DNA from: Peptococcaceae bacterium CEB3
Lineage (GTDB): Bacteria; Bacillota; Desulfitobacteriia; Desulfitobacteriales; Desulfitobacteriaceae
Length of the DNA stretch: 54,682 nt
NCBI GenBank assembly: GCA_001029295.1
Contig: LDXJ01000037.1
Coordinates: forward strand, 263-54,944
Direction of reading: 5' to 3'
The position numbers and the translations under genes were made by a program. The notes beneath the pieces were generated by a model. It was given only the letters and a program-made list of their open reading frames with translations. It was not told the DNA's origin and searched no databases. Shown one piece after another: positions 2,020-37,870 of the stretch. Numbering within the stretch: position 1 is the stretch's first letter; each line of letters begins with the position of its first letter.

Positions 2020-2379
2020 ATGGGGGTAGTTATGAATATTGGGATTTTCCCTTGCCAAGGCCGTTGTAATGTTAGTATGATGACAAAAACTGTGGCTGAG
2101 TTTTTCGTTGACGACGAAATAATTCGCGTACTGCCGAATTTGAGTTTACCTCTTGATAACGAAAGTGGTGTTAGCGAAAAGTATATTGCCTTAAATGGCT
2201 GTCCGGCTAAATGTGCTTCTAAGGAATTTGAGCTTGCTGGAATAAAACCGGATGAAGAAGTAGTCATTACCAAGGATTTTGATCCGAAAAATAACGAGAA
2301 ATATGAAGTGTTATTAAATATTGATGAAGAGGTAAACTTAGTACAGGAAACAATCGGTAGATTATTAGATGGACATTGA
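2020..2379 (+). CDS. DGC-domain putative zinc-binding protein
   Basis: 119 residues (or 115 from the ATG at 2032). The pattern is that of pfam08859: a first Cys pair in FPCQGRCN and a second set in LNGCPAKCASK, which takes the place of the family's DGC triad (Asn for Asp). The family is thought to bind metal; its biochemical role is not established. GGTGGAG precedes the first ATG. It follows a dead thioredoxin-like gene. Three more DGC proteins occur in the 17-19 kb cluster, so this organism uses the fold repeatedly. Confidence 0.8.
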   Translation: MGVVMNIGIFPCQGRCNVSMMTKTVAEFFVDDEIIRVLPNLSLPLDNESGVSEKYIALNGCPAKCASKEFELAGIKPDEEVVITKDFDPKNNEKYEVLLNIDEEVNLVQETIGRLLDGH

Positions 2380-6726: not shown

Positions 6727-7069
6727 TTACTCTTGCGGGAAGAGTCGCAGGCCGGTGTTGACCCGGTTCATCCCGCTGGAAGCAGCGATGACGGCAATCA
6801 TCTCCAGGAGTTCTTCATCGGTGACTCCCATGCTCTTCAGTTGTTTGGTGTGTGAGGCGACGCACATGTCTGAGCCGTTGTTCACGGAGGTAGTCAAGGC
6901 GATCAAGAATTTGGTCTTAGCATCCAGCTTGCCGGGAGCCATGGCGACATGCATTTGTTCTAGGGTAGCTTTCATGTAGTCCGGGGAAATGGCTAGGGCC
7001 CGGAAAGTTGGTGGAACCATTCCTTTGTCTTGTTCGAGATGTTTGAACATTCCTTGGACTTCGGGGGAA
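6727..7069 (-). pseudogene. CMD family protein, copy 2, 5'-truncated at a deletion junction
   Basis: From MFKHLEQDKGMVPPTFRALA to the end it is colinear and highly similar to copy 1, including a one-Cys active site (GSDMCVASH). Upstream only LASPEVQG of the N-terminal segment survives; then the sequence becomes the antisense of a molybdopterin oxidoreductase tail. The native start and RBS are gone. An internal ATG (7050) could still give a 107-residue product. Confidence 0.75.
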
Positions 7070-9009: not shown

Positions 9010-9216
9010 TGGTAAAATATACTTAGCTCTTTGAAAAACTGAAACTATGCGGTTCTCGGCAGAAAGGCTTGCCGAGGTAAAAGTTTCAAGCATTAAAGAA
9101 CAAGTAAAGCGGCGGCCTAACGGCGACCGCATAGAGGCCACTGGTACGGCCCGCCAAGCTCCGTAAGGAGACTTGGGAATCCTCGCGTTTCAACGCGGGG
9201 AGGAAATCAATGATAT
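9010..9216 (+). mobile_element. Solo IS200/IS605-type right end with omega-RNA-like sequence, copy A
   Basis: About 205 bp, repeated in inverted orientation at 39504-39707. It ends with the hairpin GAATCCTCGCGTTTCAACGC followed by GGGGAGGAAATCAA, the characteristic right end of TnpB-bearing elements. No tnpB precedes it. The preceding part (internal hairpin TTCTCGGCAGAAAGGCTTGCCGAG) would correspond to the omega-RNA scaffold if it derives from such an element (inference). The right edge supplies the stop codon of the cfa gene. Confidence 0.7.
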
Positions 9217-11654: not shown

Positions 11655-11911
11655 CAGCTTGCAAATCTCCTTTCAAAAAGGGGTACAGGCTTCCAACTGC
11701 CTCCAATTACTGGATAATACCATCATAGCAGGTTGGAGTCATATTCTCAAGCTTTTTAGGAGGACAACTCGTCCATCTGGCTGTCTCCGTGGAGCAGGCG
11801 AAAGGTTTTCTTGCACTTTACCGTCATGTATAATAATATAATTATAAAAACAGTCCGGGTTACCATAGAGCGGTTTAATTAAGGGAATTCCGAAAAAGAA
11901 GGTGAGTGTGC

Positions 11912-12253
11912 GTGGTACAAAGATCGGGTCTGGAGGACTTGAGTGAAGACTTCAAGGTGCTTTCAGACAAGACTCGTTTGCGAATCATCGGCCTGCTGCG
12001 GCAAAGGGAGCTGTGCGTGTGTGACTTGACGGAGGTGCTGGGGATCAGTCAGCCGGGAGTTTCCCAACACATGAGACGGCTAAACCAGGTCGGGTTTGTT
12101 CAAGAACGCAAAGGAGGGCAATGGGTGTACTACTCTTTAAATGCGGAACACCCTCTGCTCAGCTTGCTTTTGCCGCAATGGCCTGTCGTTCCTGAGGATG
12201 AGGAACGCTTAACCCGAGCAAAAGGGTGTCGGGCGTCCCGGCCACCGGGGTGA
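11912..12253 (+). CDS. ArsR/SmtB-family metal-sensing repressor
   Basis: About 113 residues of winged-helix DNA-binding protein. DFKVLSDKTRLRIIGLLRQR is helix 1-2, ELCVCDLTEVLGISQPGVSQHMRRL holds both the ELCVC metal motif (As(III)/Cd(II)-type) and the recognition helix, and GGQWVYYSLN is the wing. I use the GTG at 11912 because AAGGTGAG is well placed for it; a GTG at 11906 is possible. No ars or cad genes adjoin, so targets are unknown. A hairpin follows the stop at once. Confidence 0.88.
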   Translation: MVQRSGLEDLSEDFKVLSDKTRLRIIGLLRQRELCVCDLTEVLGISQPGVSQHMRRLNQVGFVQERKGGQWVYYSLNAEHPLLSLLLPQWPVVPEDEERLTRAKGCRASRPPG

Positions 12254-14299: not shown

Positions 14300-14566
14300 A
14301 TGCTTTATGGCAAACTCAAGGACTTTCGGGTTCTGCTCACTTTTCCTTCATTAACAGAGGCTCTGGGAGCTGAAAGGCTTCTCGATCATTCTGGTTGTCC
14401 GTTTGCGTCCATTCCGACCCCTCGCAGTCTGCGTTCCGGCTGCAACACCTCTTTATGTCTGCCGCTGGAGCACAGAGCAATCATTGATGACTTAATTGAC
14501 GACGGGGTCGTGTTTACTGGCGTCTACGAGGCGCTGGAAGATGGATTCGCGCCCTTGGTCTGGTAA
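14300..14566 (+). CDS. DUF3343 (putative Se/S carrier-like) protein
   Basis: 88 residues. FRVLLTFPSLTEALGAERLL, IPTPRSLRSGCNTSLCLPLE and the C-terminal GVYEALEDGF fit DUF3343 (pfam11823), a small ferredoxin-like-fold family with a conserved Cys that often sits beside TIGR01977 cysteine desulfurases and selD. GGGAGGGG precedes the ATG. The next gene is exactly such a desulfurase, so it may carry persulfide or selenide (inference from neighbourhood). Confidence 0.85.
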   Translation: MLYGKLKDFRVLLTFPSLTEALGAERLLDHSGCPFASIPTPRSLRSGCNTSLCLPLEHRAIIDDLIDDGVVFTGVYEALEDGFAPLVW

Positions 14567-14679
14567 AAACAAGGAGGATGAAAATTCCTAGATAAGCACA
14601 AAGTGTCTTGATCCCGCGGTTGAAGCCGAGGGCCTCGGCTGTTTCTGCAGGGGTTTAGGCAAGGGGAGGAGTGTACCGT

Positions 14680-15828
14680 ATGATTTATCTGGACAATGCC
14701 GCGACGACCTGGCCCAAACCTGAGGCTGTGGCAGGGGCGGTCCAAGAGGCTCTCCTGCATAAAGGGGGGAATGCCGGCCGGGGCGGACATGGTGCGGCCA
14801 TGCAGATGGCCAGACTTATCCATCAGACGCGGGTGGATTTATGCACTTTGTTCGGAATGGATGATCCGAGCCGGGTGGTCTTTACTCAGAATGCGACACA
14901 TGCCCTCAATATGGCCCTCTTCGGACTGTTACATCCCGGCGACCATGTGATCACCTCTTCGCTTGAGCATAACGCGGTGGCCAGGCCTTTATATGCTTTG
15001 AGACAGAGGGGTGTGAAAGTGAGCGAAGTGCCGGGAACCCCGGGGGCCGAATTCGATTTTGCCTTTTACCGCAAGGCTTTTCGACCCAAGACAAAGTTGG
15101 TGGTTACCCTGCATGCCTCCAACGTTACCGGCACCACACTGCCTATCCGCGAGATCGGTCAAATGGCTCACGAGCACGGTGTCCGTTATCTCCTGGATGC
15201 CGCGCAGACGGCCGGGGTTTTCCCCATTGATCTGAAAAACCTTCCGGTCGATCTGTTGGCTTTTCCCGGACACAAAGGCCTCTTGGGACCGCAGGGAACC
15301 GGAGGGCTCATTATTAAGGCCGATGTGAGAGTTGAACCCCTAATCTATGGGGGGACGGGGAGTCTCTCTGAGGAAGTCCGCCAGCCGGATTTCCTGCCGG
15401 ATGCTTTGGAAAGCGGAACGCTCAACGGAGTCGGACTTGCCGGTTTGGGTGCGGGAGTGCGCTACATCTTGGCGGAAGGGGTTGATCAAATTCGCGTCAG
15501 GGAGCAGGAGCTTTGCCGGAAATTATGGAGCGGGTTAAAAGGGATCGCGGGTGTAAAACTATACGGAAGCGAAGAGGGGGAAAGGCGCGCCGCCATCATC
15601 GCCTTTAACCTGGGTGAGATGGACTCGGTTGAACTGAGCTACATCCTGGAAGAGAGGGCGGGGATCATTGCCAGGGCAGGCTTGCACTGCGCGGCCCAGG
15701 CCCACAGGATGCTTGGAACCCTGGATCAGGGAGTCGTACGTTTCAGCCCATCGCATTATACGAGCGTGGCAGAGATCGAGAAGGCACTTCAGACTGTGAA
15801 AGAAGTGGCGGCAGAGATGGGCTATTGA
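14680..15828 (+). CDS. Cysteine desulfurase family protein (TIGR01977 type)
   Basis: 382 residues of the PLP class-V fold that takes sulfur (or selenium) from cysteine to an active-site persulfide. IYLDNAATTWPKPE opens it; SLEHNAVARPL, LLDAAQTAGVFPIDL and the PLP Lys in FPGHKGLLGPQGTGG follow; the catalytic Cys is in ARAGLHCAAQAH. I start at the ATG at 14680 (RBS AGGGGAGGAG) rather than the in-frame GTG at 14671. DUF3343 lies upstream and a HesB-like selenoprotein candidate downstream, suggesting a role in Se or Fe-S supply. The window has a second desulfurase, IscS at 36.7 kb. Confidence 0.93.
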   Translation: MIYLDNAATTWPKPEAVAGAVQEALLHKGGNAGRGGHGAAMQMARLIHQTRVDLCTLFGMDDPSRVVFTQNATHALNMALFGLLHPGDHVITSSLEHNAVARPLYALRQRGVKVSEVPGTPGAEFDFAFYRKAFRPKTKLVVTLHASNVTGTTLPIREIGQMAHEHGVRYLLDAAQTAGVFPIDLKNLPVDLLAFPGHKGLLGPQGTGGLIIKADVRVEPLIYGGTGSLSEEVRQPDFLPDALESGTLNGVGLAGLGAGVRYILAEGVDQIRVREQELCRKLWSGLKGIAGVKLYGSEEGERRAAIIAFNLGEMDSVELSYILEERAGIIARAGLHCAAQAHRMLGTLDQGVVRFSPSHYTSVAEIEKALQTVKEVAAEMGY

Positions 15829-16118: not shown

Positions 16119-16445
16119 ATGGTAAGTATCACGGAGACAGCCGCGGGGAAAGTGAAAGAGGTTTTGCACCAGCAAAATCTTGATTCAGGCTATCTGAGAG
16201 TCTACATCGCGGGCTTTGGCTGAGGGGGGCCGAATTTCGGCTTGACTCTGGATGAGTCTGCAAAAGAAAATGATACGGTTGATGAGGAAAACGGGGTGAA
16301 AATTCTGTCCGCCGATAACATGGCGCCTTATTTGGAAGGAGCGCTGATTGACTTCATAGAATCCGGCAGCGGCGGCGGTTTTCAGATCAAGACGGCGTCA
16401 ACGGGTGACGGTTGCGGCGGCGACGGCTGTAGCAGCTGCGGCTAG
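16119..16445 (+). CDS. HesB/IscA-like protein with in-frame UGA (probable selenoprotein)
   Basis: Reading through TGA at 16221-16223 gives 108 residues: MVSITETAAGKVKEVLHQQN, then LRVYIAGFG-U-GGPNFGLTLDES, ending DGCGGDGCSSCG before TAG. In ordinary HesB/IscA-like proteins the UGA position is the first conserved Cys (GCSGP or GCGGP). HesB-like selenoproteins are an established bacterial family. RBS GAGGAGG precedes the ATG; the frame is clean on both sides, and a SECIS-like hairpin sits at the right distance. The alternative is a nonsense mutation, less likely because it hits exactly the Sec-tolerant position. It would bind Fe-S or act in redox or Se chemistry. Confidence 0.85.
16244..16258 (+). 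promoter_or_regulatory. Candidate bacterial SECIS hairpin
   Basis: GACTC-TGGAT-GAGTC forms a 5-bp stem with a 5-nt loop. The stem starts 21 nt after the UGA and the loop has G as its second base, as the bacterial SECIS model expects. A nearer stem (GCCGA-ATT-TCGGC, 16229-16241) could stack below or compete. Confidence 0.55.
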
Positions 16446-16703: not shown

Positions 16704-17087
16704 ATGGCGGAGAAACCTGGGTTTATCATGTGTGTCTGCACCGGAAAATGTCCGGGCTTTGAACAGATGGACATTTGGGATTTTATTAATCAGGTGCGGG
16801 TGGAGCTACCGGTGGAATATGGCTTTATTCATCCCCAACTCTGTGAGGAGGACGGAGACCGATTTTTGGCCGACTACCTGAAGGCCGGGAGGCCCGTCGT
16901 GATCGGAGCTTGTTCTCCCAACATGCAGCACAAGATGTTCAAACAGGCGTTTGCCGATGCCGGACTTGATGTCAAGAAAGACTTGGTGGCCATTGACATC
17001 AGGGATATGACGACGGAGAAGGCGGTCGAGACCGTAAGTGAAGCATTGGAAGGTATGGAGCGCCGGGAGGGGACGAAAGATGAGTGA
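16704..17087 (+). CDS. Stand-alone HdrA N-terminal-domain-like protein
   Basis: 127 residues. FIMCVCTGKCPGFEQMDIWD at the start, GFIHPQLCEEDGDRFLADYL, then VVIGACSPNMQHKMFKQAFADAGL and DLVAIDIRD match the N-terminal domain of heterodisulfide reductase subunit A (the CxCG...C...ACSPRTHE region) without the FAD domain. In HdrA this part binds a cluster and contacts partner subunits. The Cys residues at 10, 12, 16, the middle Cys and ACSP remain. The RBS GGAGGAGAAAG is strong. It overlaps the ferredoxin gene by 8 bp, so the two products are likely partners. Confidence 0.75.
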   Translation: MAEKPGFIMCVCTGKCPGFEQMDIWDFINQVRVELPVEYGFIHPQLCEEDGDRFLADYLKAGRPVVIGACSPNMQHKMFKQAFADAGLDVKKDLVAIDIRDMTTEKAVETVSEALEGMERREGTKDE

Positions 17088-17361
17088 AAGCACATTCATG
17101 GGGGTGCCGAGAGCCAAGATTTCCTGGGCTCCCGTGATTGACTACGCCAAGTGCACTTTTTGCCTGGAATGTGACAAATTTTGCCCCCACAAGGTCTACG
17201 AGGTGAACCGAGAAGAACGACGCCTTATCGTCGCCCATCCTGAGCACTGTGTCGTCTTTTGCCGGGCCTGCTCCAAAACCTGTGGTCCGGATGCTTTGAG
17301 TTTCCCGAACAAGGCGGAAGTCACGGAACGGATCAAAGCGCTGCGCAAGGAGGGAGCATGA
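17080..17361 (+). CDS. Two-cluster ferredoxin
   Basis: 93 residues with CTFCLECDKFCP and CVVFCRACSKTCGP, each able to hold a 4Fe-4S cluster, joined by VYEVNREERRLIVAHPEH. The second motif has an extra residue between its first two Cys (CxxxC). Its start overlaps the HdrA-N-like gene and its stop overlaps the DGC-GcvH start. It probably passes electrons to or from that complex. Such a fold resembles small HdrC-type or FixX-type ferredoxins. Confidence 0.9.
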   Translation: MSESTFMGVPRAKISWAPVIDYAKCTFCLECDKFCPHKVYEVNREERRLIVAHPEHCVVFCRACSKTCGPDALSFPNKAEVTERIKALRKEGA

Positions 17362-18257
17362 TGAAACATTGGGGAATTCTTCCCTGCAACGGTTTGGACA
17401 AGCCGGTCGGGCAGCTGGCGCGGGAGATCGCCCTTAACTTGGCGCAAGATCAGTCCAAAACCTTAGCCTGTCCGGTTCTCCTTCACAGCGCACCTTCCGT
17501 CTACGCCAAGACCAAAGAAGAGACGCAGTGGGTTGTGCTGGACGGCTGCAATACTCGCTGCGCCAGTAAACTGGCGGCGGAGATGGGCTTCAGCGTCGGG
17601 AAAAAGATCAATGTGACCAAGTTGGTGGAGAAAGAAAATCTGAACTTGGGTCATTCGCTGCGTTTGGGACCGGAAGAGTTGGCCTTGGCCCAACGGAGTG
17701 CTGCCGAATTAGCGGCGGCTTTGCCCTCCACCCGGACGGAAGGGGAAGAGGAAGCCGCGGTTGTTCGGGATGAGAAGGCAGCGGGGGAGACAGATCTCGA
17801 CTTTCCCGCTTCGCTCACTTACACGGAGTTCCGGCAGGACAAATTCCGCTTCCGTGTTCCCGAGGGGGAGTTCTTCTTCAACGAGAACGATTGCTGGGTA
17901 TGGGTTCGGGGAACACGGGCCAGAGTCGGTGTGAGCGATTACGTGCAGCAGAGCCTCTCGGATATCTTGTTCTTTTCGCCGCCGGAGGTCGGAGCCGAGG
18001 TGGAACAATTCGGCGTATTAGGCACTTTGGAGTCCTCCAAAGCCGTATTTGAAGTCATTGCTCCCGTGGCCGGCAGGGTCCTTAGGGTCAATGAAGAGCT
18101 GGAAGGATCACCGGAGCGGGTGAACGAAAACCCCTATGAGCAGGGCTGGATTGCCGAGGTGGAGCTGACGGATTGGGAAGCGGACCGGGAGTTGCTGCTC
18201 GATGCGCAGCAGTATCTCACATATCTCAAAAATAAGGTGGCGGATTTTCATGTCTGA
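17361..18257 (+). CDS. DGC domain fused to GcvH-like lipoyl carrier
   Basis: 298 residues. Residues 1-120 are a DGC domain (HWGILPCNGLDKPVGQLARE and VVLDGCNTRCASKLAAEMG). A charged linker follows (EGEEEAAVVRDEKAAGE). Residues 160-298 are GcvH-like: WVWVRGTRARVGVSDYVQQS, VEQFGVLGTLESSKAVFEVI, APVAGRVLRVNEEL, with the lipoylatable Lys in SSKA. No other glycine-cleavage gene is present, so the arm probably carries another substrate, as LbpA does in the sHdr sulfur-oxidation system (by analogy). I take the second of two adjacent ATGs (RBS AAGGAGGG 6 bp away). Confidence 0.88.
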   Translation: MKHWGILPCNGLDKPVGQLAREIALNLAQDQSKTLACPVLLHSAPSVYAKTKEETQWVVLDGCNTRCASKLAAEMGFSVGKKINVTKLVEKENLNLGHSLRLGPEELALAQRSAAELAAALPSTRTEGEEEAAVVRDEKAAGETDLDFPASLTYTEFRQDKFRFRVPEGEFFFNENDCWVWVRGTRARVGVSDYVQQSLSDILFFSPPEVGAEVEQFGVLGTLESSKAVFEVIAPVAGRVLRVNEELEGSPERVNENPYEQGWIAEVELTDWEADRELLLDAQQYLTYLKNKVADFHV

Positions 18258-18675
18258 GAAAAACGAAAGAAAGGTCATGCTCGTTCCCTGCAGCGGGATT
18301 GGCAAGGTTCACGGCTTAATCGGCCGGGAGGCCGTATTTAGAGTGGCCGGCGAACTGCGCCCGCAAGACACTGAGCTGGCCTGTCTGGCAGAAATTGTCA
18401 CTCAGGATAAAGAGATCAGGGAGCGGATGAACGGTCGCTTGACTATTACGGTTGACGGTTGCCCGAAAATGTGCGCGGAGAAAAATGTACGCTTGGTTGG
18501 CGGCGAAATTTTCACTTCCCTGCGCGTTGTGGATGCTTTCCGTACCCATCGCGGGGCGCAGGCCGGGAGTGCGACGGAACTCACTTCAGACGGTTGGCAG
18601 ATCAGTGATGAGCTGGCGGACCGGCTTGCTCTGAAAGTGGATGAGGCTCGGCAGGGAGGGAATAAAGATGCTTGA
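18250..18675 (+). CDS. DGC-domain protein, second of cluster
   Basis: 141 residues. VMLVPCSGIGKVHGLIGREA, then ELACLAEIVTQDKEIRERM, then ITVDGCPKMCAEKNVRLVGG, a complete DGC triad with the following Cys. The C-terminus is helical and charged. It overlaps the preceding stop by 8 bp and the next start by 8 bp, so translation is coupled. Role unknown: the family is thought to bind zinc or another metal, and three versions in one operon suggest a hetero-oligomer or serial transfer of a thiol group. Confidence 0.85.
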   Translation: MSEKNERKVMLVPCSGIGKVHGLIGREAVFRVAGELRPQDTELACLAEIVTQDKEIRERMNGRLTITVDGCPKMCAEKNVRLVGGEIFTSLRVVDAFRTHRGAQAGSATELTSDGWQISDELADRLALKVDEARQGGNKDA

Positions 18676-19135
18676 GGTCAAAAAAGTCGGCATTATTTCT
18701 TGCAGCGGCGAAGAGTGTGCCGGAGGCGGCATTTCTCGGCTGGCGGCCCGACACGTTTTGGAAAGCACCCGGCCGGGCCGCACGGTCACAATTTGTCTGC
18801 CGCTTTTCCTGGCCGGGGGTGAGGAGGAGCGCTATTTTGCCCGGACCTTTCCCACGATTACCGTCGACGGTTGTGAAAAACGCTGTGCGTTCCGGGCTAC
18901 GGAGAAACTGAGCGGGCACGTGACGAAGGCCTTGACGGTCTCCGACATCCTCGGTGCAGAGAGCGCCGCGGCACCCTCTTTTTCCCAGCGCCAGCTCAAC
19001 CCGGAACTGGAGCGGAAAATTGATACTGTTAGCACCGCGCTGACGGAAGCGGTAGACGAGATTATGGGCAAACCGGCGGCCGCAGAACACCTTCTCAAGC
19101 CTACGGTACCACCGGCGGGGATGCGACTCCTCTAG
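18668..19135 (+). CDS. DGC-domain protein, third of cluster
   Basis: 155 residues. KVGIISCSGEECAGGGISRL is followed by an AAR helix, VTICLPLFLAGGEEERYFA, and ITVDGCEKRCAFRATEKLSG with the DGC triad. The N-terminal Cys pair (SCSGEEC) differs from the PCSG of its neighbour, so the two are not a recent duplication. RBS GGGAGGG precedes the ATG. The stop is followed by a repeat-rich 143-bp gap before the lipoate ligase. Confidence 0.85.
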   Translation: MLEVKKVGIISCSGEECAGGGISRLAARHVLESTRPGRTVTICLPLFLAGGEEERYFARTFPTITVDGCEKRCAFRATEKLSGHVTKALTVSDILGAESAAAPSFSQRQLNPELERKIDTVSTALTEAVDEIMGKPAAAEHLLKPTVPPAGMRLL

Positions 19136-19278
19136 CCTGGTGACCGCGGCAGGCTGTGACTCGCGACTAAAAAGCTTAGCCGCCTGCCGCTGGCTTTAAC
19201 CGGCTTTAGCCATGGGGTGATTCAGCGCAGTTTTGGCCATGGGCTTATCCAGCGAGGTATAAAGAGGTATAAAACAGG

Positions 19279-20025
19279 ATGAATACGGAAAGGGAAAAAG
19301 TCATTTGGCTGCCCCGGCAGAGAGTTGATCTTTCTTTGGCAGCGGAGGCAGTTTGGATGGAAAAGGTGCGGGAGAGTGGTCAAGCGAGACTCTTGCTCTG
19401 GCAAGCAGGCTTGTCCGCCATTGTTCTCGGCCGATCCCAGGTGGCAGAGAAAGAAGTCTATGAGGAGGAATGCCGTGCTCGCGGCGTTCCTCTTTTGCGG
19501 CGAGTGAGCGGGGGCGGGGCAGTTTTGCAGATGCCCGGGGTTTTTAATTATTCCTTGATTCTGCCGGAACAGAGCAGACTGAGTATCAAGGGCGGATTCC
19601 GGCTGGGAACAGGGCTTATCCAAGATACATTAAGCCGATTGGGCATAGAGAGTACGGTGCAAGGCGTGTCCGATGTCACGGTCAGGGGACGTAAAATTTC
19701 GGGCAATGCTGTGGCCCAGGTCAGCCGGGTTCTCCTCGTCCATGGCACTTTACTGGCCGAAGTGGATATGTTTTTATTGGAGGCTTGCCTGCGCCACCCC
19801 AGTCGTGAACCGGATTATAGGGGAGGTCGCAGTCACCGCGAGTTTTTAACGACATTGGCTGATTTGTGCGGCTGGGGGCCAGCCTCACGGATAAGTGCGG
19901 TCCCACATTCACGCAAGTGTGCCGTCCTGCATTCACGGGAGTGTACCGCCGCGCATGAGGTGCTCTCTGACGCGTTAACAGCTGCGGGGGACGATCTGAT
20001 CCAGCAGTTGGGGAAGAGTCGTTAA
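19279..20025 (+). CDS. Lipoate-protein ligase A family protein
   Basis: 248 residues of the biotin/lipoate ligase fold. RRVSGGGAVLQMPGVFNYSL matches the lipoate-binding RRxSGGGAVxH loop, except that Leu-Gln replaces Tyr-His. GRKISGNAVAQVSRVLLVHG is the catalytic Lys motif. The C-terminal accessory domain of E. coli LplA is absent, as in many LplA/LipL-type enzymes. It lies directly after the DGC-GcvH cluster and most likely lipoylates that carrier. Near the end, 24-bp repeats encode CAVPHSRK/CAVLHSRE-like eight-residue units (about 19896-19957). Confidence 0.88.
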   Translation: MNTEREKVIWLPRQRVDLSLAAEAVWMEKVRESGQARLLLWQAGLSAIVLGRSQVAEKEVYEEECRARGVPLLRRVSGGGAVLQMPGVFNYSLILPEQSRLSIKGGFRLGTGLIQDTLSRLGIESTVQGVSDVTVRGRKISGNAVAQVSRVLLVHGTLLAEVDMFLLEACLRHPSREPDYRGGRSHREFLTTLADLCGWGPASRISAVPHSRKCAVLHSRECTAAHEVLSDALTAAGDDLIQQLGKSR

Positions 20026-25330: not shown

Positions 25331-26643
25331 TACTCTTTTTCAGAGTACGGCTTTTTTCCGGGGTGCAGAAAGGTATCTTGACCGATGCCCGAGGGTGTGA
25401 AGAAAGTCGCGTTGTCCGCTTGGGTGGGCAGGTAAGTCTGGCTCACCCAGTGTCCGGGGTAGGAATGGGGATAGAGATATCCCTCTCCGTGCCCCATTTT
25501 TTTAGCTCCGGGATACTGGGCATCGCGCAGATGAGGAGGAACATTTCCGGTGGGATGGGTTTTCACATAAGCCAAAGCCTTATCTATAGAGGCGACGACA
25601 CTGTTGCTCTTGGGAGAGGTGGCGATGGCCAGCACGGCTTGGGCCATGGGAATGCGCGCTTCGGGCAGACCCACCCATTCGAGAGCGTTGGCGGCCGCCT
25701 GGGCTTGCAGCATGGCCATGGGGTTGGCTAAACCGACATCTTCCGAGGCGTGGATGATGATCCTGCGCATGAGAAAACGTGGATCCTCTCCGGCCGTAAG
25801 CAGTACGGCAAACCAGTAGAGAGCCGCATCGGGGTCGGAGCCGCGCATGCTTTTGATAAGGGCAGAGATCAAGTCATAATGATTGTCTCCCGCCTTGTCG
25901 TAGCGGACGGCCCTTTGTTGGATCGAGTCTTCGGCGATTTGAAAATCGATCAGGCGGACCCCGTTTGTGGGCGGGGTGGTGAGAACCGACAGTTCCAGAG
26001 CGTTTAACGCCCGCCGCAGATCCCCGTTGGCATAATTAAGCCAGTGTTCCCAGGCTGGGGGTTGAACATCCACCTGAAAGTGGCCCAGACCGCGTTCCGG
26101 ATCTCTCAGAGCTCTTTCTAAACCCAGACGAATTTCGGCATCCGTTAAGGTCTCCAGCTTGAAAAGACCTGAACGGCTGAGCAGGGCCGAATTTATCTCG
26201 AAAAAGGGGTTTTCGGTGGTGGCTCCGATAAAAGTGATGATGCCGTTTTCCACGGCGGGCAGGAGCGCGTCTTGTTGACCCTTATTGAAGCGGTGAACCT
26301 CATCACAGAAGACCAAAGTGCGCCGGCCGTAGAGGTGCAGCTGCTCCGCGGCTTGTTGAATGATCTCTCTAATCTCTTTGATCCCGGCCGCCACGGCATT
26401 GAGACGGACAAAATCCGCTTGGGTCGTATTGGCAATGACCTGGGCCAAAGAGGTTTTCCCGCTGCCGGGAGGTCCGTAGAGGATGAGGGAGGAGACGCGG
26501 TCCGCTTCGATAGCCCGGCGGAGAAGTTTGCCCGGAGCGAGGATATGGCTTTGTCCCAGATACTCGGCCAGCGTCCGGGGGCGCATACGCTCGGCTAGGG
26601 GGGCGACCTGATTCTGATCGAAAGCGGCAGAAAAGAGATCCAT
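25327..26643 (-). CDS. rarA: Replication-associated recombination protein RarA (MgsA), full-length copy
   Basis: 438 residues, the usual length. AAA+ clamp-loader-like ATPase: LAEYLGQSHILAPGKLLRRA, Walker A LYGPPGSGKTSLA, Walker B LVFCDEVHRFNKGQQDALLP, sensor IGATTENPFFEIN, and the C-terminal tetramer domain ending HLRDAQYPGAKKMGHGEGYL. It acts at stalled forks. Residues 1-362 are repeated almost exactly at 32628-33722. This copy alone has the complete C-terminus. Confidence 0.96.
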   Translation of the reverse strand: MDLFSAAFDQNQVAPLAERMRPRTLAEYLGQSHILAPGKLLRRAIEADRVSSLILYGPPGSGKTSLAQVIANTTQADFVRLNAVAAGIKEIREIIQQAAEQLHLYGRRTLVFCDEVHRFNKGQQDALLPAVENGIITFIGATTENPFFEINSALLSRSGLFKLETLTDAEIRLGLERALRDPERGLGHFQVDVQPPAWEHWLNYANGDLRRALNALELSVLTTPPTNGVRLIDFQIAEDSIQQRAVRYDKAGDNHYDLISALIKSMRGSDPDAALYWFAVLLTAGEDPRFLMRRIIIHASEDVGLANPMAMLQAQAAANALEWVGLPEARIPMAQAVLAIATSPKSNSVVASIDKALAYVKTHPTGNVPPHLRDAQYPGAKKMGHGEGYLYPHSYPGHWVSQTYLPTQADNATFFTPSGIGQDTFLHPGKKPYSEKEY

Positions 26644-26659
26644 GGCGTGATAGCTCCTT
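25556..26659 (-). repeat. Direct repeat A (rarA, 1.1 kb)
   Basis: About 1,100 bp matching 32636-33738 in the same orientation with only a handful of differences that I can see (for example TATAGAGGC versus TATGGCAGC, and AAGTGGCC versus AAGCGGCC). The match starts at GGGTTTTCACATAAGCC inside the gene and stops about 16 bp upstream of the start codon. Weaker similarity (CAAGTATAGCTTTCCCGG) resumes near 26780. Confidence 0.95.
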
Positions 26660-26991
26660 ACCTTTGTATAAGTTTCTGTTATATAGATTGATGTAGGCCG
26701 TTGACACGGGCCATATTAGACATACACCACACATAGGAAATGTAAATGTAAATGGTGGTTTAGATTTTGTGCCTCGTGCCAAGTATAGCTTTCCCGGTGT
26801 CCGGACGCAAGCCAGATTGGCGATGAGATGTCGGTTTACCCAGTCGTGAGATTCCCACTTCTACAAGCTTCTACACCAATTTCTTTTCGATTGTTGCAGG
26901 AAGCAGCAAGAACAGCGTCGAAAGCCAATAACAGCGTCTAACAGTGTCGAAAGCATGAGAAAGAGGTTTCGCGGGAGAGGAGAGGAACCCT
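26660..26991. other. Gap between divergent rarA and the HTH-TPR regulator
   Basis: No gene seen. It contains three direct repeats of AACAGCGTC(GAAAGC) at 26911-26925, 26930-26938 and 26940-26954, just upstream of the regulator; they could be autoregulatory sites. The rarA-side part shares words with the region upstream of the second rarA. Confidence 0.5.
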
Positions 26992-32585: not shown

Positions 32586-32636
32586 TTGAAAAAAACCTAG
32601 ATAATCGTCCTTGGATTTATAAGCTTATTACTTTTG
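32586..32636 (+). pseudogene. Start of a further secreted protein, cut off by the second rarA
   Basis: GGGGGA precedes TTG AAA AAA ACC, then TAG, then IIVLGFISLLLLG. Apart from the amber codon this is a textbook signal-peptide N-terminus in the right place for the next operon gene. It runs directly into the end of the rarA repeat at 32636. I infer that the duplication replaced the rest of this gene. Confidence 0.5.
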
Positions 32637-33722
32637 GGTTTTCACATAAGCCAAGGCCTTATCTATGGCAGCGACGACACTGTTGCTCTTGGGGGAGGTG
32701 GCAATGGCCAGCACGGCTTGGGCCATGGGAATGCGCGCTTCGGGCAGACCCACCCATTCGAGAGCGTTGGCGGCCGCCTGGGCTTGCAGCATGGCCATGG
32801 GGTTGGCTAAACCGACATCTTCCGAGGCGTGGATGATGATCCTGCGCATGAGAAAACGTGGATCCTCTCCGGCCGTAAGCAGTACGGCAAACCAGTAGAG
32901 AGCCGCATCGGGGTCGGAGCCGCGCATGCTTTTGATAAGGGCAGAGATCAAGTCATAATGATTGTCTCCCGCCTTGTCGTAGCGGACGGCCCTTTGTTGG
33001 ATCGAGTCTTCGGCGATTTGAAAATCGATCAGGCGGACCCCGTTTGTGGGCGGGGTGGTGAGAACCGACAGTTCCAGAGCGTTTAACGCCCGCCGCAGAT
33101 CCCCGTTGGCATAATTAAGCCAGTGTTCCCAGGCTGGGGGTTGAACATCCACCTGAAAGCGGCCCAGACCGCGTTCCGGATCTCTCAGAGCTCTTTCTAA
33201 ACCCAGACGAATTTCGGCATCCGTTAAGGTCTCCAGCTTGAAAAGACCTGAACGGCTGAGCAGGGCCGAATTTATCTCGAAAAAGGGGTTTTCGGTGGTG
33301 GCTCCGATAAAAGTGATGATGCCGTTTTCCACGGCGGGCAGGAGCGCGTCTTGTTGACCCTTATTGAAGCGGTGAACCTCATCACAGAAGACCAAAGTGC
33401 GCCGGCCGTAGAGGTGCAGCTGCTCCGCGGCTTGTTGAATGATCTCTCTAATCTCTTTGATCCCGGCCGCCACGGCATTGAGACGGACAAAATCCGCTTG
33501 GGTCGTATTGGCAATGACCTGGGCCAAAGAGGTTTTCCCGCTGCCGGGAGGTCCGTAGAGGATGAGGGAGGAGACGCGGTCCGCTTCGATAGCCCGGCGG
33601 AGAAGTTTGCCCGGAGCGAGGATATGGCTTTGTCCCAGATACTCGGCCAGCGTCCGGGGGCGCATACGCTCGGCTAGGGGGGCGACCTGATTCTGATCGA
33701 AAGCGGCAGAAAAGAGATCCAT
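32628..33722 (-). pseudogene. RarA, second copy, C-terminally truncated
   Basis: 364 residues; residues 1-362 are almost identical to the copy at 25327-26643, with the Walker motifs intact. The last 75 residues, part of the tetramerisation domain, are replaced by QK and a stop that comes from the flanking sequence. It may fold but is probably defective or dominant-negative as an oligomer. The presence of both copies offers an obvious route for recombination. Confidence 0.85.
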
Positions 33723-33738
33723 GGCGTGATAGCTCCTT
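32636..33738 (-). repeat. Direct repeat B (rarA, 1.1 kb)
   Basis: Partner of 25556-26659. The two copies lie about 6 kb apart edge to edge, in the same orientation. Recombination between them would delete the regulator-peptide-ABC module and restore a single rarA. Confidence 0.95.
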
Positions 33739-33739
33739 A

Positions 33740-34076: not shown

Positions 34077-34694
34077 CTATTTCCAGATAGAGATCCATAG
34101 CCCAGTATGATCTTGTGTTATTTTAAATTCAGGTATTTTTGCATCTTCTAATACCTTTTGAAAGATTTGGACAGATTTTTCTCCGGTAACGTCCTTAACC
34201 TTTTCCGCCCAATCCTTGTCTATTTCGATCATTTTTGCGGTAATTTGTTTTTGTAGTTCAGCGGTACCAAAACCTGTGCCGATGTAGGCTACTCCTCCCG
34301 GTGAGAGCACCCGGTAGATTTCTTGAAAGGCGCCTTGACGGTTTTCCCATAAGAACATGGAACCTCTGCTTACGACAAGGTTTAGGGCTTGATTCGCTAA
34401 GGGAATTTCATGTACGTCGCCCAGTAAGGTTCGGACTCTTTTACCCAAACCATGGGCATCCACGTTTTTCTGAGCTATTTTCAACATTTCTGCATTCTTG
34501 TCAAGTAAATAGATATCGAGATCAGTAATTTCAGCCAAAGCGATGCTAAGATACCCCCCACCACATCCGATATCTAAGCATGATCCCCCTGTGATGCCTG
34601 ATTTTTCTTTGATTTGCGCCGCTATCACTGGATAAGTTGGTGCAAATACCTCACGGGCAAATTTATCGAATTCGGTAACGTTGAGCATCCTCAT
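34077..34694 (-). CDS. SAM-dependent methyltransferase (class I)
   Basis: 205 residues. SAM loop CLDIGCGGGYLSIALAEITD, acidic strand DIYLLDKNAEML, LGDVHEIPLANQALNLVVSR and VLSPGGVAYIGTGFG form a Methyltransf_11-type fold. The C-terminal part (residues 150-205) is unlike named families and would carry substrate specificity. The gene adjoins the DUF438 gene on the same strand with a 49-bp gap. Substrate unknown. Confidence 0.88.
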   Translation of the reverse strand: MRMLNVTEFDKFAREVFAPTYPVIAAQIKEKSGITGGSCLDIGCGGGYLSIALAEITDLDIYLLDKNAEMLKIAQKNVDAHGLGKRVRTLLGDVHEIPLANQALNLVVSRGSMFLWENRQGAFQEIYRVLSPGGVAYIGTGFGTAELQKQITAKMIEIDKDWAEKVKDVTGEKSVQIFQKVLEDAKIPEFKITQDHTGLWISIWK

Positions 34695-36682: not shown

Positions 36683-37870
36683 ATGCGCAAGGTATATATG
36701 GATCACAGTGCGACCACTCCGGTTGATCCGGAAGTCGCGTCTTTAATGATGACGTATTACACGGAGAAATACGGGAACCCGTCCAGTATCCATAGTTTTG
36801 GCCAAGAGGCCAGAGAAGCTTTAGAGAAGGCCAGGGAACAAGTGGCGGGTTTTATCGGGGCCCAGCCGGCGGAGATCACGTTTACCAGCGGCGGGACGGA
36901 AGCTGACAATCTGGCTGTCCTCGGGGCGGCTGAGGCTTACAGGAAAAAAGGCAAACACCTGATCACGACGGCTGTTGAGCACCACGCGGTGTTGGAAACC
37001 TTTGAGTTTTTGGCGAAGAACGGGTTTGAATTGACCATCCTGCCTGTTGACGAATATGGGTTGCTTTCAGTCGAAGAAGTCAGGAAGGCTATCCGACCCG
37101 ACACGATTCTCCTCAGCGTCATGCAAGCCAACAATGAGGTGGGAACGATTCAACCCATTGCGGAAATCGGCAAACTGGCCAAGGAGCGAGGAGTTCTTTT
37201 TCATGTCGACGCGGTTCAGTCTTTAGGAAAAATACCGGTGAATGTTGATGATTTGAATGTGGACATGTTGACCATCTCCAGTCACAAGATCTATGGCCCC
37301 AAAGGGGTGGGAGCTCTCTATGTGCGCAAAGGGATCCGCCTGATTCCTTTGGTTCACGGCGGCGGGCAGGAGAAAAAACGCCGTTCAGGGACGGAGAATA
37401 CACCCGGGATCATTGGCTTTGGTAAGGCCTGTGAGCTGGCTCAAGCGAGGATGGAAGAGGAAGCGGAGAGGCTGACTGAGCTCAGGGATAGATTATTAGA
37501 CGGCATCCTGGAGCGGATTGACTATGTCAAAGTCAATGGGCCGCGCGGTGCCAGGCGCTTGCCTAATAATGTCAACGTCAGCATTCAGTTCGTCGAGGGC
37601 GAGTCTCTCCTTTTGAGCCTGGACATGGTGGGGATTGCCGCTTCCAGCGGTTCGGCCTGCACTTCCGGTTCGCTTGATCCCTCACACGTCTTGCTGGCGA
37701 TGGGCTTGCCCCATGAGATAGCCCACGGTTCCTTGCGTTTTTCCCTGGGACGGCAGAACACCGAGGAAGATGTGGACTATGTACTGGAACAGTTGCCGAA
37801 GATCGTGGAGAGATTGCGCCAGATGTCCCCCTTGTTCGATCAGATGCAACGAGAAGCCGGGGCAAAATAA
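36683..37870 (+). CDS. iscS: Cysteine desulfurase IscS/NifS
   Basis: 395 residues. VYMDHSATTPVDPEVASLMM, the PLP Lys in ISSHKIYGPKGVGALYV, and the persulfide Cys in SSGSACTSGSLDPSH. It supplies sulfur for Fe-S assembly on IscU and for tRNA thiolation by MnmA, both downstream. AAGGAGG precedes the ATG. It is a group I (NifS/IscS) enzyme, distinct from the TIGR01977 desulfurase at 14.7 kb. Confidence 0.96.
   Translation: MRKVYMDHSATTPVDPEVASLMMTYYTEKYGNPSSIHSFGQEAREALEKAREQVAGFIGAQPAEITFTSGGTEADNLAVLGAAEAYRKKGKHLITTAVEHHAVLETFEFLAKNGFELTILPVDEYGLLSVEEVRKAIRPDTILLSVMQANNEVGTIQPIAEIGKLAKERGVLFHVDAVQSLGKIPVNVDDLNVDMLTISSHKIYGPKGVGALYVRKGIRLIPLVHGGGQEKKRRSGTENTPGIIGFGKACELAQARMEEEAERLTELRDRLLDGILERIDYVKVNGPRGARRLPNNVNVSIQFVEGESLLLSLDMVGIAASSGSACTSGSLDPSHVLLAMGLPHEIAHGSLRFSLGRQNTEEDVDYVLEQLPKIVERLRQMSPLFDQMQREAGAK

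Follow-up and report, generated by a model that had tools for sequence, protein, structure and literature searches.

The window analysed here, 54,682 nucleotides from the genome of Peptococcaceae bacterium CEB3 (contig LDXJ01000037.1, positions 263–54,944), carries on its plus strand a compact gene module that combines iron-sulfur proteins, a putative lipoyl carrier and proteins of the DGC family (PF08859), the function of which is not known. The module starts with a stand-alone HdrA N-terminal-domain protein (HdrA-N, 16704–17087, 127 aa), directly followed by a separate gene for a two-cluster 2x[4Fe-4S] ferredoxin (17080–17361, 93 aa; Fer4_10, 4.8e-6), a DGC-GcvH fusion (17358, or 17361 from the second ATG, to 18257, 298–299 aa) and two free DGC proteins, DGC2 (18250–18675, 141 aa) and DGC3 (18668–19135, 155 aa). 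The fusion matches GCV_H (PF01597, 4e-30) and has its lipoyl lysine in an ESSKA motif, and the DGC profile scores above the Pfam cut-off in all three DGC proteins (2.6e-18 in the fusion, 3.8e-12 in DGC2 and 9.1e-16 in DGC3). The initial annotation had described overlapping genes that end with a lipoate ligase; this holds for the five module genes, which overlap by 8, 4 (or 1, counted from the second ATG of the fusion), 8 and 8 bp and most of which are preceded by purine-rich stretches, possible ribosome-binding sites as judged by eye, but not for the lipoate-protein ligase-type gene (LplA, 19279–20025, 248 aa), which starts 143 bp after the end of DGC3 without any overlap. The Pfam match of this protein is to the catalytic domain only (LplA-B_cat, 1.6e-39); a ligase of this kind may need a partner, or may act as a transferase. 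HdrA-N alone has no Pfam match and only a weak one to the NCBIfam HdrA profile (4.6e-5), and a profile of 45 HdrA-N sequences (left after thinning at 90% identity and a length filter) matches the HdrA chain 7bkb_A in the PDB with 1.6e-4. In comparison with HdrA, the N-terminal cluster domain is present in this protein of 127 aa, while the FAD and C-terminal ferredoxin domains are absent. No gcvP or gcvT gene was seen by eye in the window.

For comparison, 83 loci were assembled: 80 loci of other genomes (kept from 102 relatives in a species-level genome collection), the window, and two loci from the window's order (L034 and L035); they are mutually related, and many are contigs of metagenome-assembled genomes (MAGs). 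Confinement of the fusion to the window had been named beforehand as grounds for giving up the proposal, and its presence in the 80 loci of other genomes removes that objection. The order HdrA-N, ferredoxin, fusion, DGC2, DGC3 is found in 78 of the 83 loci and a permuted order (DGC2, DGC3, HdrA-N, ferredoxin, fusion) in three (L066, L074, L080), while two (L098, L109) are cut by contig ends. An order shared by 78 loci of both bacteria and archaea makes the module more than a chance arrangement. Its hosts among the Clostridia include Desulfosporosinus, Clostridium, Caloramator, Acetobacterium, Eubacterium and Sedimentibacter; the others are Bacteroidales MAGs, Actinomycetota, two Armatimonadota, single MAGs labelled Dehalococcoidales, Planctomycetaceae, Desulfovibrio and Alphaproteobacteria, and, among the archaea, seven Asgard genomes (Loki-, Heimdall- and Jordarchaeia). 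In a search of the relatives of the window's genome (G000), complete copies of the fusion turned up in G001 (83% identity), G029, G024, G040 and G045. Present in 9 of the 82 genomes of the class, the fusion is thus an accessory trait, and D. metallidurans, Desulfosporosinus BRH_c37, Lucifera butyrica and E. callanderi have two copies each. The tree of the fusion groups the sequences mostly by phylum and, being unrooted, neither shows nor excludes transfer; the locus labelled Alphaproteobacteria (L071) groups with Bacteroidota and is probably misbinned. A tblastn search of 72,556 plasmid records yielded no more than the GcvH part, which 5 Priestia plasmids carry (40–41% of the query covered).

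The lipoyl lysine of the fusion (motif E[S/T]xK) and its four DGC cysteines are present in 83 of 83 loci, and all 62 fusion proteins scanned contain both Pfam domains (the alignment keeps 62 of 83 rows: 67 after thinning at 85% identity, then shortened by hand). All five cysteines of HdrA-N (C10, C12, C16, C47 and C70) occur in 82 of 82 rows, C16 standing opposite a non-cysteine residue in the two PDB HdrA chains aligned, and seven of the eight cysteines of the ferredoxin occur in 98 of 98 rows, the eighth in 97, in an alignment that includes further ferredoxin matches. DGC2 has C41, C98 and C102 in 84 of 84 rows and C72 in 82; DGC3 has C23, C54, C80 and C84 in 83 of 83 rows, with a DGC Pfam match in all 56 proteins of the set left after 85% thinning and a length filter. 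AlphaFold2 models the fusion with a pLDDT of 91.7, and the GcvH half of the model is a complete H-protein fold (131 residues aligned with 1htp at 0.9 A, Z 22.9). The DGC domain is an alpha/beta structure, the best matches of which are flavodoxin-like and hydrogenase-protease folds (Z about 7–8), tied with unrelated folds. Both in this model and in that of DGC3 (pLDDT 88.1) the DGC cysteines stand where strands 1, 2 and 3 end or just beyond, at one edge of the sheet, as read from secondary structure and not from coordinates. Sequence searches of the PDB with DGC gave nothing credible (no match at E <= 10 in one search, and two matches at E 0.57 and 1.5 in another).

The genes around the module suggest a link with arsenic rather than with the oxidation of sulfur or the cleavage of glycine. 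Proteins of all 83 loci were clustered and 20 of them, mostly cluster representatives, were run against NCBIfam; ACR3, ArsD, ArsA, ArsM, ArsG and the dihydrolipoyl dehydrogenase Lpd scored above the cut-off on one representative each, and the ArsC and permease representatives below it. An ArsR regulator or a core ars gene (ACR3, ArsC, ArsD, ArsA, ArsM or ArsG) accompanies the module in 76 of 83 loci, compared with 1 of 39 random 20-kb control windows, and two or more of these types are present in 51 loci versus 1 control. Taken separately, ArsR is found in 71 loci vs 1 control (Fisher p 7e-20) and core ars genes in 56 vs 1 (p 7e-13); the counts per gene are 34 vs 1 for ACR3, 24 vs 1 for ArsC, 15 vs 0 for ArsG, 14 vs 0 for ArsM, 13 vs 0 for ArsA and 10 vs 0 for ArsD. 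The association extends over all groups (Asgard 7/7, Bacteroidota clade 13/14, Actinomycetota 3/5, five other MAGs 5/5, Bacillota and unassigned 48/52) and reaches 49 of 50 among loci of at least 18 kb. Of the 71 ArsR-bearing loci, 58 encode a CxC motif in the ArsR frame; in 35 loci no more than 600 bp separate ArsR from a module gene or from Lpd, and 32 of these have the motif. CxC motifs are characteristic of ArsR proteins that sense As(III), but also of some other metal sensors. A further DGC type, DGC4, occurs in 14 loci and in none of the controls. The type of pump differs by lineage, while HdrA-N, the ferredoxin, the lipoyl carrier and the three DGC proteins are constant, which points to a chemical step upstream of export. 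As side observations, an uncharacterised MFS transporter (e.g. in L040, L054 and L099) is present in 14/83 loci and 1/39 controls, and W_rSAM_matur-like radical-SAM proteins (e.g. L041 12679–13770, L034 18226–19614) in 9/83 and 3/39.

We consider it highly probable that the module is linked to arsenic. Dithiols bind As(III) strongly, the dihydrolipoyl group most famously, and the simplest reading is therefore that the DGC cysteines and the lipoyl arm pass trivalent arsenic between them. We propose, tentatively and with a confidence that falls just short of an even chance, an arsenic-responsive, ferredoxin-driven lipoyl relay of anaerobes, in which the DGC cysteines and the dihydrolipoyl arm would bind or reduce a trivalent-arsenic species. 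A rise in As(III) would release the ArsR repressor and the operon would be transcribed; LplA or another ligase of the cell would lipoylate the invariant lysine of the GcvH half; the three DGC proteins, with four conserved cysteines each at the edge of a flavodoxin-like sheet, would bind the arsenic species; the swinging dihydrolipoyl arm would take it over as a cyclic dithiol-arsenic adduct and carry it between the DGC sites; and low-potential electrons of the ferredoxin, passing through HdrA-N, would reduce the bound arsenic or reset the arm. In many Bacillota electrons might also come from NADH via the neighbouring dihydrolipoyl dehydrogenase; the genes for these routes are present, and the direction of electron flow is presumed. 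The product would go to whichever pump or methylase is at hand (ACR3, ArsA/D, ArsG, ArsM or the permeases). The parts of this scheme differ in strength: transfer of electrons from the ferredoxin to the lipoyl arm or to arsenic is somewhat more probable than its absence, carriage of arsenic on the lipoyl arm is possible but slightly on the doubtful side, and the complete version, in which the arm carries arsenic among the three cysteine-site proteins and ferredoxin electrons reduce it there via the stand-alone HdrA-N, so that the module would be a redox core behind unrelated pumps and methylases in bacteria and Asgard archaea, must at present be called doubtful.

The same machinery could act on another substrate than inorganic As(III), namely on methylated or other organoarsenicals, by anaerobic demethylation or reduction, or on antimony or tellurium, and we give this a small but real chance. 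ArsM and ArsG, both absent from the controls, would fit, the latter being named by NCBIfam for aromatic arsenical efflux, and regulators with a CxC motif often answer to several metalloids. However, the genes of inorganic arsenic are as frequent or more so (ACR3 in 34 loci, ArsC in 24, ArsA in 13, ArsD in 10), and none of the neighbours scanned, which are a sample, received the name of a C-As lyase.

A protective function deserves similar attention: the module might keep dithiols reduced, strip arsenic from poisoned lipoyl enzymes or serve as a sacrificial sponge, with no conversion of arsenic at all. Lipoyl enzymes are classic targets of arsenite, and genes of thiol redox chemistry are common at the loci: thioredoxin-like genes recognised by a TrxR profile in 41 of 83, CcdA in 25 and Lpd in 42 (4 of 39 controls, p 1.6e-5), in 30 of them directly upstream of HdrA-N. 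Since 41 of the 42 Lpd-bearing loci fall in the Bacillota and unassigned set, Lpd is an add-on, unlike the constant HdrA-N and ferredoxin. What tells against mere protection is that G040 and G045, with neither LipA nor gcvP above cut-off and with no other GcvH, may have few lipoyl enzymes to protect, and that the presence of three distinct conserved DGC proteins hints at several successive steps; we regard this explanation as rather improbable.

As for lipoate in the proposed relay, LplA is enriched at the loci (23 of 83 vs 0 of 39, p 9e-5), as is Lpd, and the DGC-GcvH fusion itself can with good confidence be predicted to be lipoylated. No LipA scored above the cut-off in G000, G001, G040 and G045, so that these four genomes probably salvage lipoate; G024 (with one internal stop) and G029 have LipA. 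Two loci add small lipoyl/biotinyl-type domain proteins to the picture: in L034 (15420–17880) a second DGC2-DGC3 pair is followed by two of them and by LplA, and in L035 (10018–11965) three stand between DGC3 and LplA. DGC genes thus appear from their neighbourhoods to be tied to lipoyl-type carriers of two different families.

Several points weigh against the arsenic relay and should be set beside the counts that favour it. The evidence for a role in arsenic handling comes from gene neighbourhood; the ars profiles derive from the module loci themselves, these loci are not independent of one another, and they span many phyla, while the controls were drawn from 7 genomes of one order. Seven of the 83 loci (L046, L052, L053, L086, L088, L104 and L110) have neither ArsR nor a core ars gene, and although six of them are shorter than 16 kb, L046 spans 20.9 kb. 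At the level of whole genomes, ACR3 co-occurs with the fusion in 8 of 9 cases compared with 45 of 73, an enrichment that is not significant (p 0.15). The adduct of arsenic with the dihydrolipoyl group is very stable, and its release therefore needs an extra step. The first cysteine of DGC after strand 1, followed by later cysteines, is reminiscent of the layout in low-molecular-weight protein tyrosine phosphatases and ArsC, but structure searches did not separate DGC from other folds: the matches to arsenate-reductase-type folds (YfkJ, E 0.024; 2l17, Z 6.7) tie with unrelated alpha/beta folds. In the window's own genome, only ArsR lies near the module on the same contig, and the sole ACR3 match is on another contig (C43). 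Finally, a cysteine desulfurase is found in 19 of the 83 loci and in none of the 39 controls, and a DUF3343 protein (Se_S_carrier) near the module in 6, all of them from Acididesulfobacillus or Desulfosporosinus; together with the HesB-type gene described below, these neighbours mean that the role could be one in sulfur or selenium metabolism.

The initial annotation had suggested such a role, with the lipoyl arm carrying sulfane sulfur or selenium between DGC cysteines in the manner of LbpA in the sHdr pathway; the arsenic neighbours would then reflect joint handling of thiols and metalloids, for instance the supply of sulfide for thioarsenic species. Besides the genes just named, nine loci contain a rhodanese-like cluster (one member checked), and the combination of an HdrA-derived domain with a lipoyl carrier resembles sHdr. 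The HdrB CCG signature (a regular expression applied to frames of at least 180 aa) is present in 0 of 83 loci and 2 of 39 controls, and the two cysteines which, according to the excerpted text of PMC6067878, are strictly conserved in LbpA (some archaeal LbpA excepted) and lacking in GcvH are not conserved in the GcvH half of the fusion, where the commonest cysteine column is filled in 60 of 83 sequences and the next in 11. Of the sHdr features looked for, the lipoyl lysine is there in all 83 loci, but on the two other counts membership of the sHdr system was rejected. The hosts, judged by name, are largely fermenters, acetogens and sulfate reducers, and it is arsenic genes that surround the module (76 of 83 loci vs 1 of 39), so that sulfur or selenium now appears an improbable substrate.

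As regards glycine cleavage, the best gcvP matches in G040 and G045 (20.7 and 23.3 bits) stay under the cut-off of 26 and neither genome has a GcvH besides the fusion at E <= 1e-5, while G000, G001, G024 and G029 have gcvP, in G000 beside another GcvH on contig C60. An accessory role in this system, as a variant of the H protein that serves one-carbon metabolism or hands lipoate on to other enzymes, is thus very improbable and was rejected in spite of the full H-protein fold, as fusion-bearing genomes do without a gcvP match above cut-off and no gcvP-like family is prominent among the neighbouring protein clusters. Homologous clusters do not need gcvP, so that a second of the objections named beforehand falls away, and the earlier view of a conserved, probably lipoylated carrier that works outside glycine cleavage, with DGC cysteine sites and a ferredoxin, is supported; the lipoyl lysine is kept in 83 of 83 loci.

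Upstream of the module in the window, on the plus strand, lie an ArsR-family regulator with the motif ELCVCDL (11906–12253, 115 aa; 4.2e-33 with our own ArsR profile), a Se_S_carrier (DUF3343) protein (14300–14566, by family match), a cysteine desulfurase-family enzyme (14671–15828; NCBIfam TIGR01977) and, just before HdrA-N, an IscA/HesB-type gene (16119–16445) with an in-frame TGA at 16221–16223 (GFG-TGA-GGP). The in-frame TGA recurs in the genome of the sister species A. acetoxydans (L031, motif at 9014) and SelB is encoded in the window's genome; the gene is probably a selenoprotein gene, but the potential stem after the TGA has a fold z of only -1.15, and no SECIS element is claimed. No arsenic pump was matched by the profiles when the whole window was scanned. 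The profile counts for the window used positions 7000–28300; the rescan at full length added only three matches: DGC4 (2020–2379, plus strand), a second desulfurase (36683–37870) and a weak ArsM-profile match (58 bits, 34077–34694), the last of which is probably a general methyltransferase.

The end of contig C43 carries ArsR, ArsM, ArsD, ArsA and ACR3 (profile matches), then one small gene and a copy of an insertion sequence (IS) that runs to the contig end and looks by eye like an IS200/OrfB-like transposase. This copy (L157 10388–10897) is 99.6% identical over 510 bp to positions 1–510 of the window. These positions have 17 matches in the genome, the window included; the C43 copy is the closest, other full-length copies show 93–95% identity and all others 97% or less. 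On the single-contig chromosome of A. acetoxydans (L031/L038), ArsR-ArsM-ACR3 stands about 4.5–7 kb upstream of the module, and from the IS match and this layout together we conclude that the two contigs probably adjoin. Both arsenate and selenate serve A. acetoxydans as electron acceptors, according to the excerpt of PMC8982180; the excerpted text of a study of its nitrate metabolism (PMC10949509) has no mention of arsen-, lipo-, glycine cleavage, zinc-binding or HdrA.

Two repeats were noted elsewhere in the window. Positions 25556–26660 and 32635–33739 form a 1,105-bp repeat with 99.4% identity. Judged by eye, the repeat holds most of an AAA ATPase-like gene, and between its copies lies a block of genes that look like membrane and ABC-transporter genes; it may be a recent duplication or an effect of assembly. 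Positions 1252–1581 and 6733–7062 are 82% identical and span the minus-strand frames 1246–1680 and 6727–7050, which by eye look like the carboxymuconolactone-decarboxylase type.

Lipoate is known from five carbon-metabolism complexes and from the sulfur-binding role argued in PMC6067878, as given in the excerpt of that paper. Its use in arsenic handling appears not to have been described before. The toxicity of arsenite is due in part to the capture of dihydrolipoyl arms; a dedicated lipoyl arm among arsenic genes would, if our reading is true, turn this weakness into a tool, extend the anaerobic arsenic cycle by a ferredoxin-driven step and provide a role for the DGC domain. The set HdrA-N, ferredoxin, DGC/GcvH, DGC, DGC would then also be a marker for metagenomes of paddies, mine drainage and aquifers, and the claim is testable, as the sister species is a cultured arsenate user. 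The novelty rests on the composition of the module and its linkage to arsenic, whereas the mechanism is one that we infer. The set had been thought to match no described pathway, and no published description of it was found in the titles and abstract openings of open-licence PMC papers.

Of the known systems, sHdr sulfur oxidation with LbpA and dedicated lipoate ligases (PMC6067878, in excerpt) resembles the module in having a lipoyl carrier of the GcvH type that works outside glycine cleavage, a lipoate ligase, which some of the loci have close by, and an HdrA-derived part; the present module differs by the missing HdrB CCG signature, an HdrA reduced to its N-terminal domain, a carrier fused to DGC and without the two cysteines of LbpA, and its arsenic neighbours. 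The excerpted text of PMC3543383 deals with a different lipoyl carrier (LarG) and, in Pelobacter, with the arrangement ArsR-CCG-DUF318; neither corresponds to this set. The glycine cleavage H protein shares with the C-terminal half of the fusion its fold and lipoyl-lysine motif, but the latter is joined to DGC and occurs in genomes without gcvP above cut-off. In the GcvH-L/LplA2/sirtuin-macrodomain operons of Gram-positive cocci, too, a GcvH-like carrier unconnected with glycine cleavage comes with a dedicated ligase; the GcvH-L structure (5a35) is the weakest H-type match to the fusion (Z 15.1 vs 22.9). Bacterial ars clusters are linked to the module by location, since it is found within or next to them and frequently has a CxC-bearing ArsR close by, but to our knowledge no known ars gene uses lipoate, ferredoxin or HdrA-N, and the five core genes are not among the named ars genes. 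All three DGC proteins belong to the DGC family as defined by Pfam, and what sets them apart here is the fusion of one of them to GcvH and their membership of a fixed set with HdrA-N and a ferredoxin.

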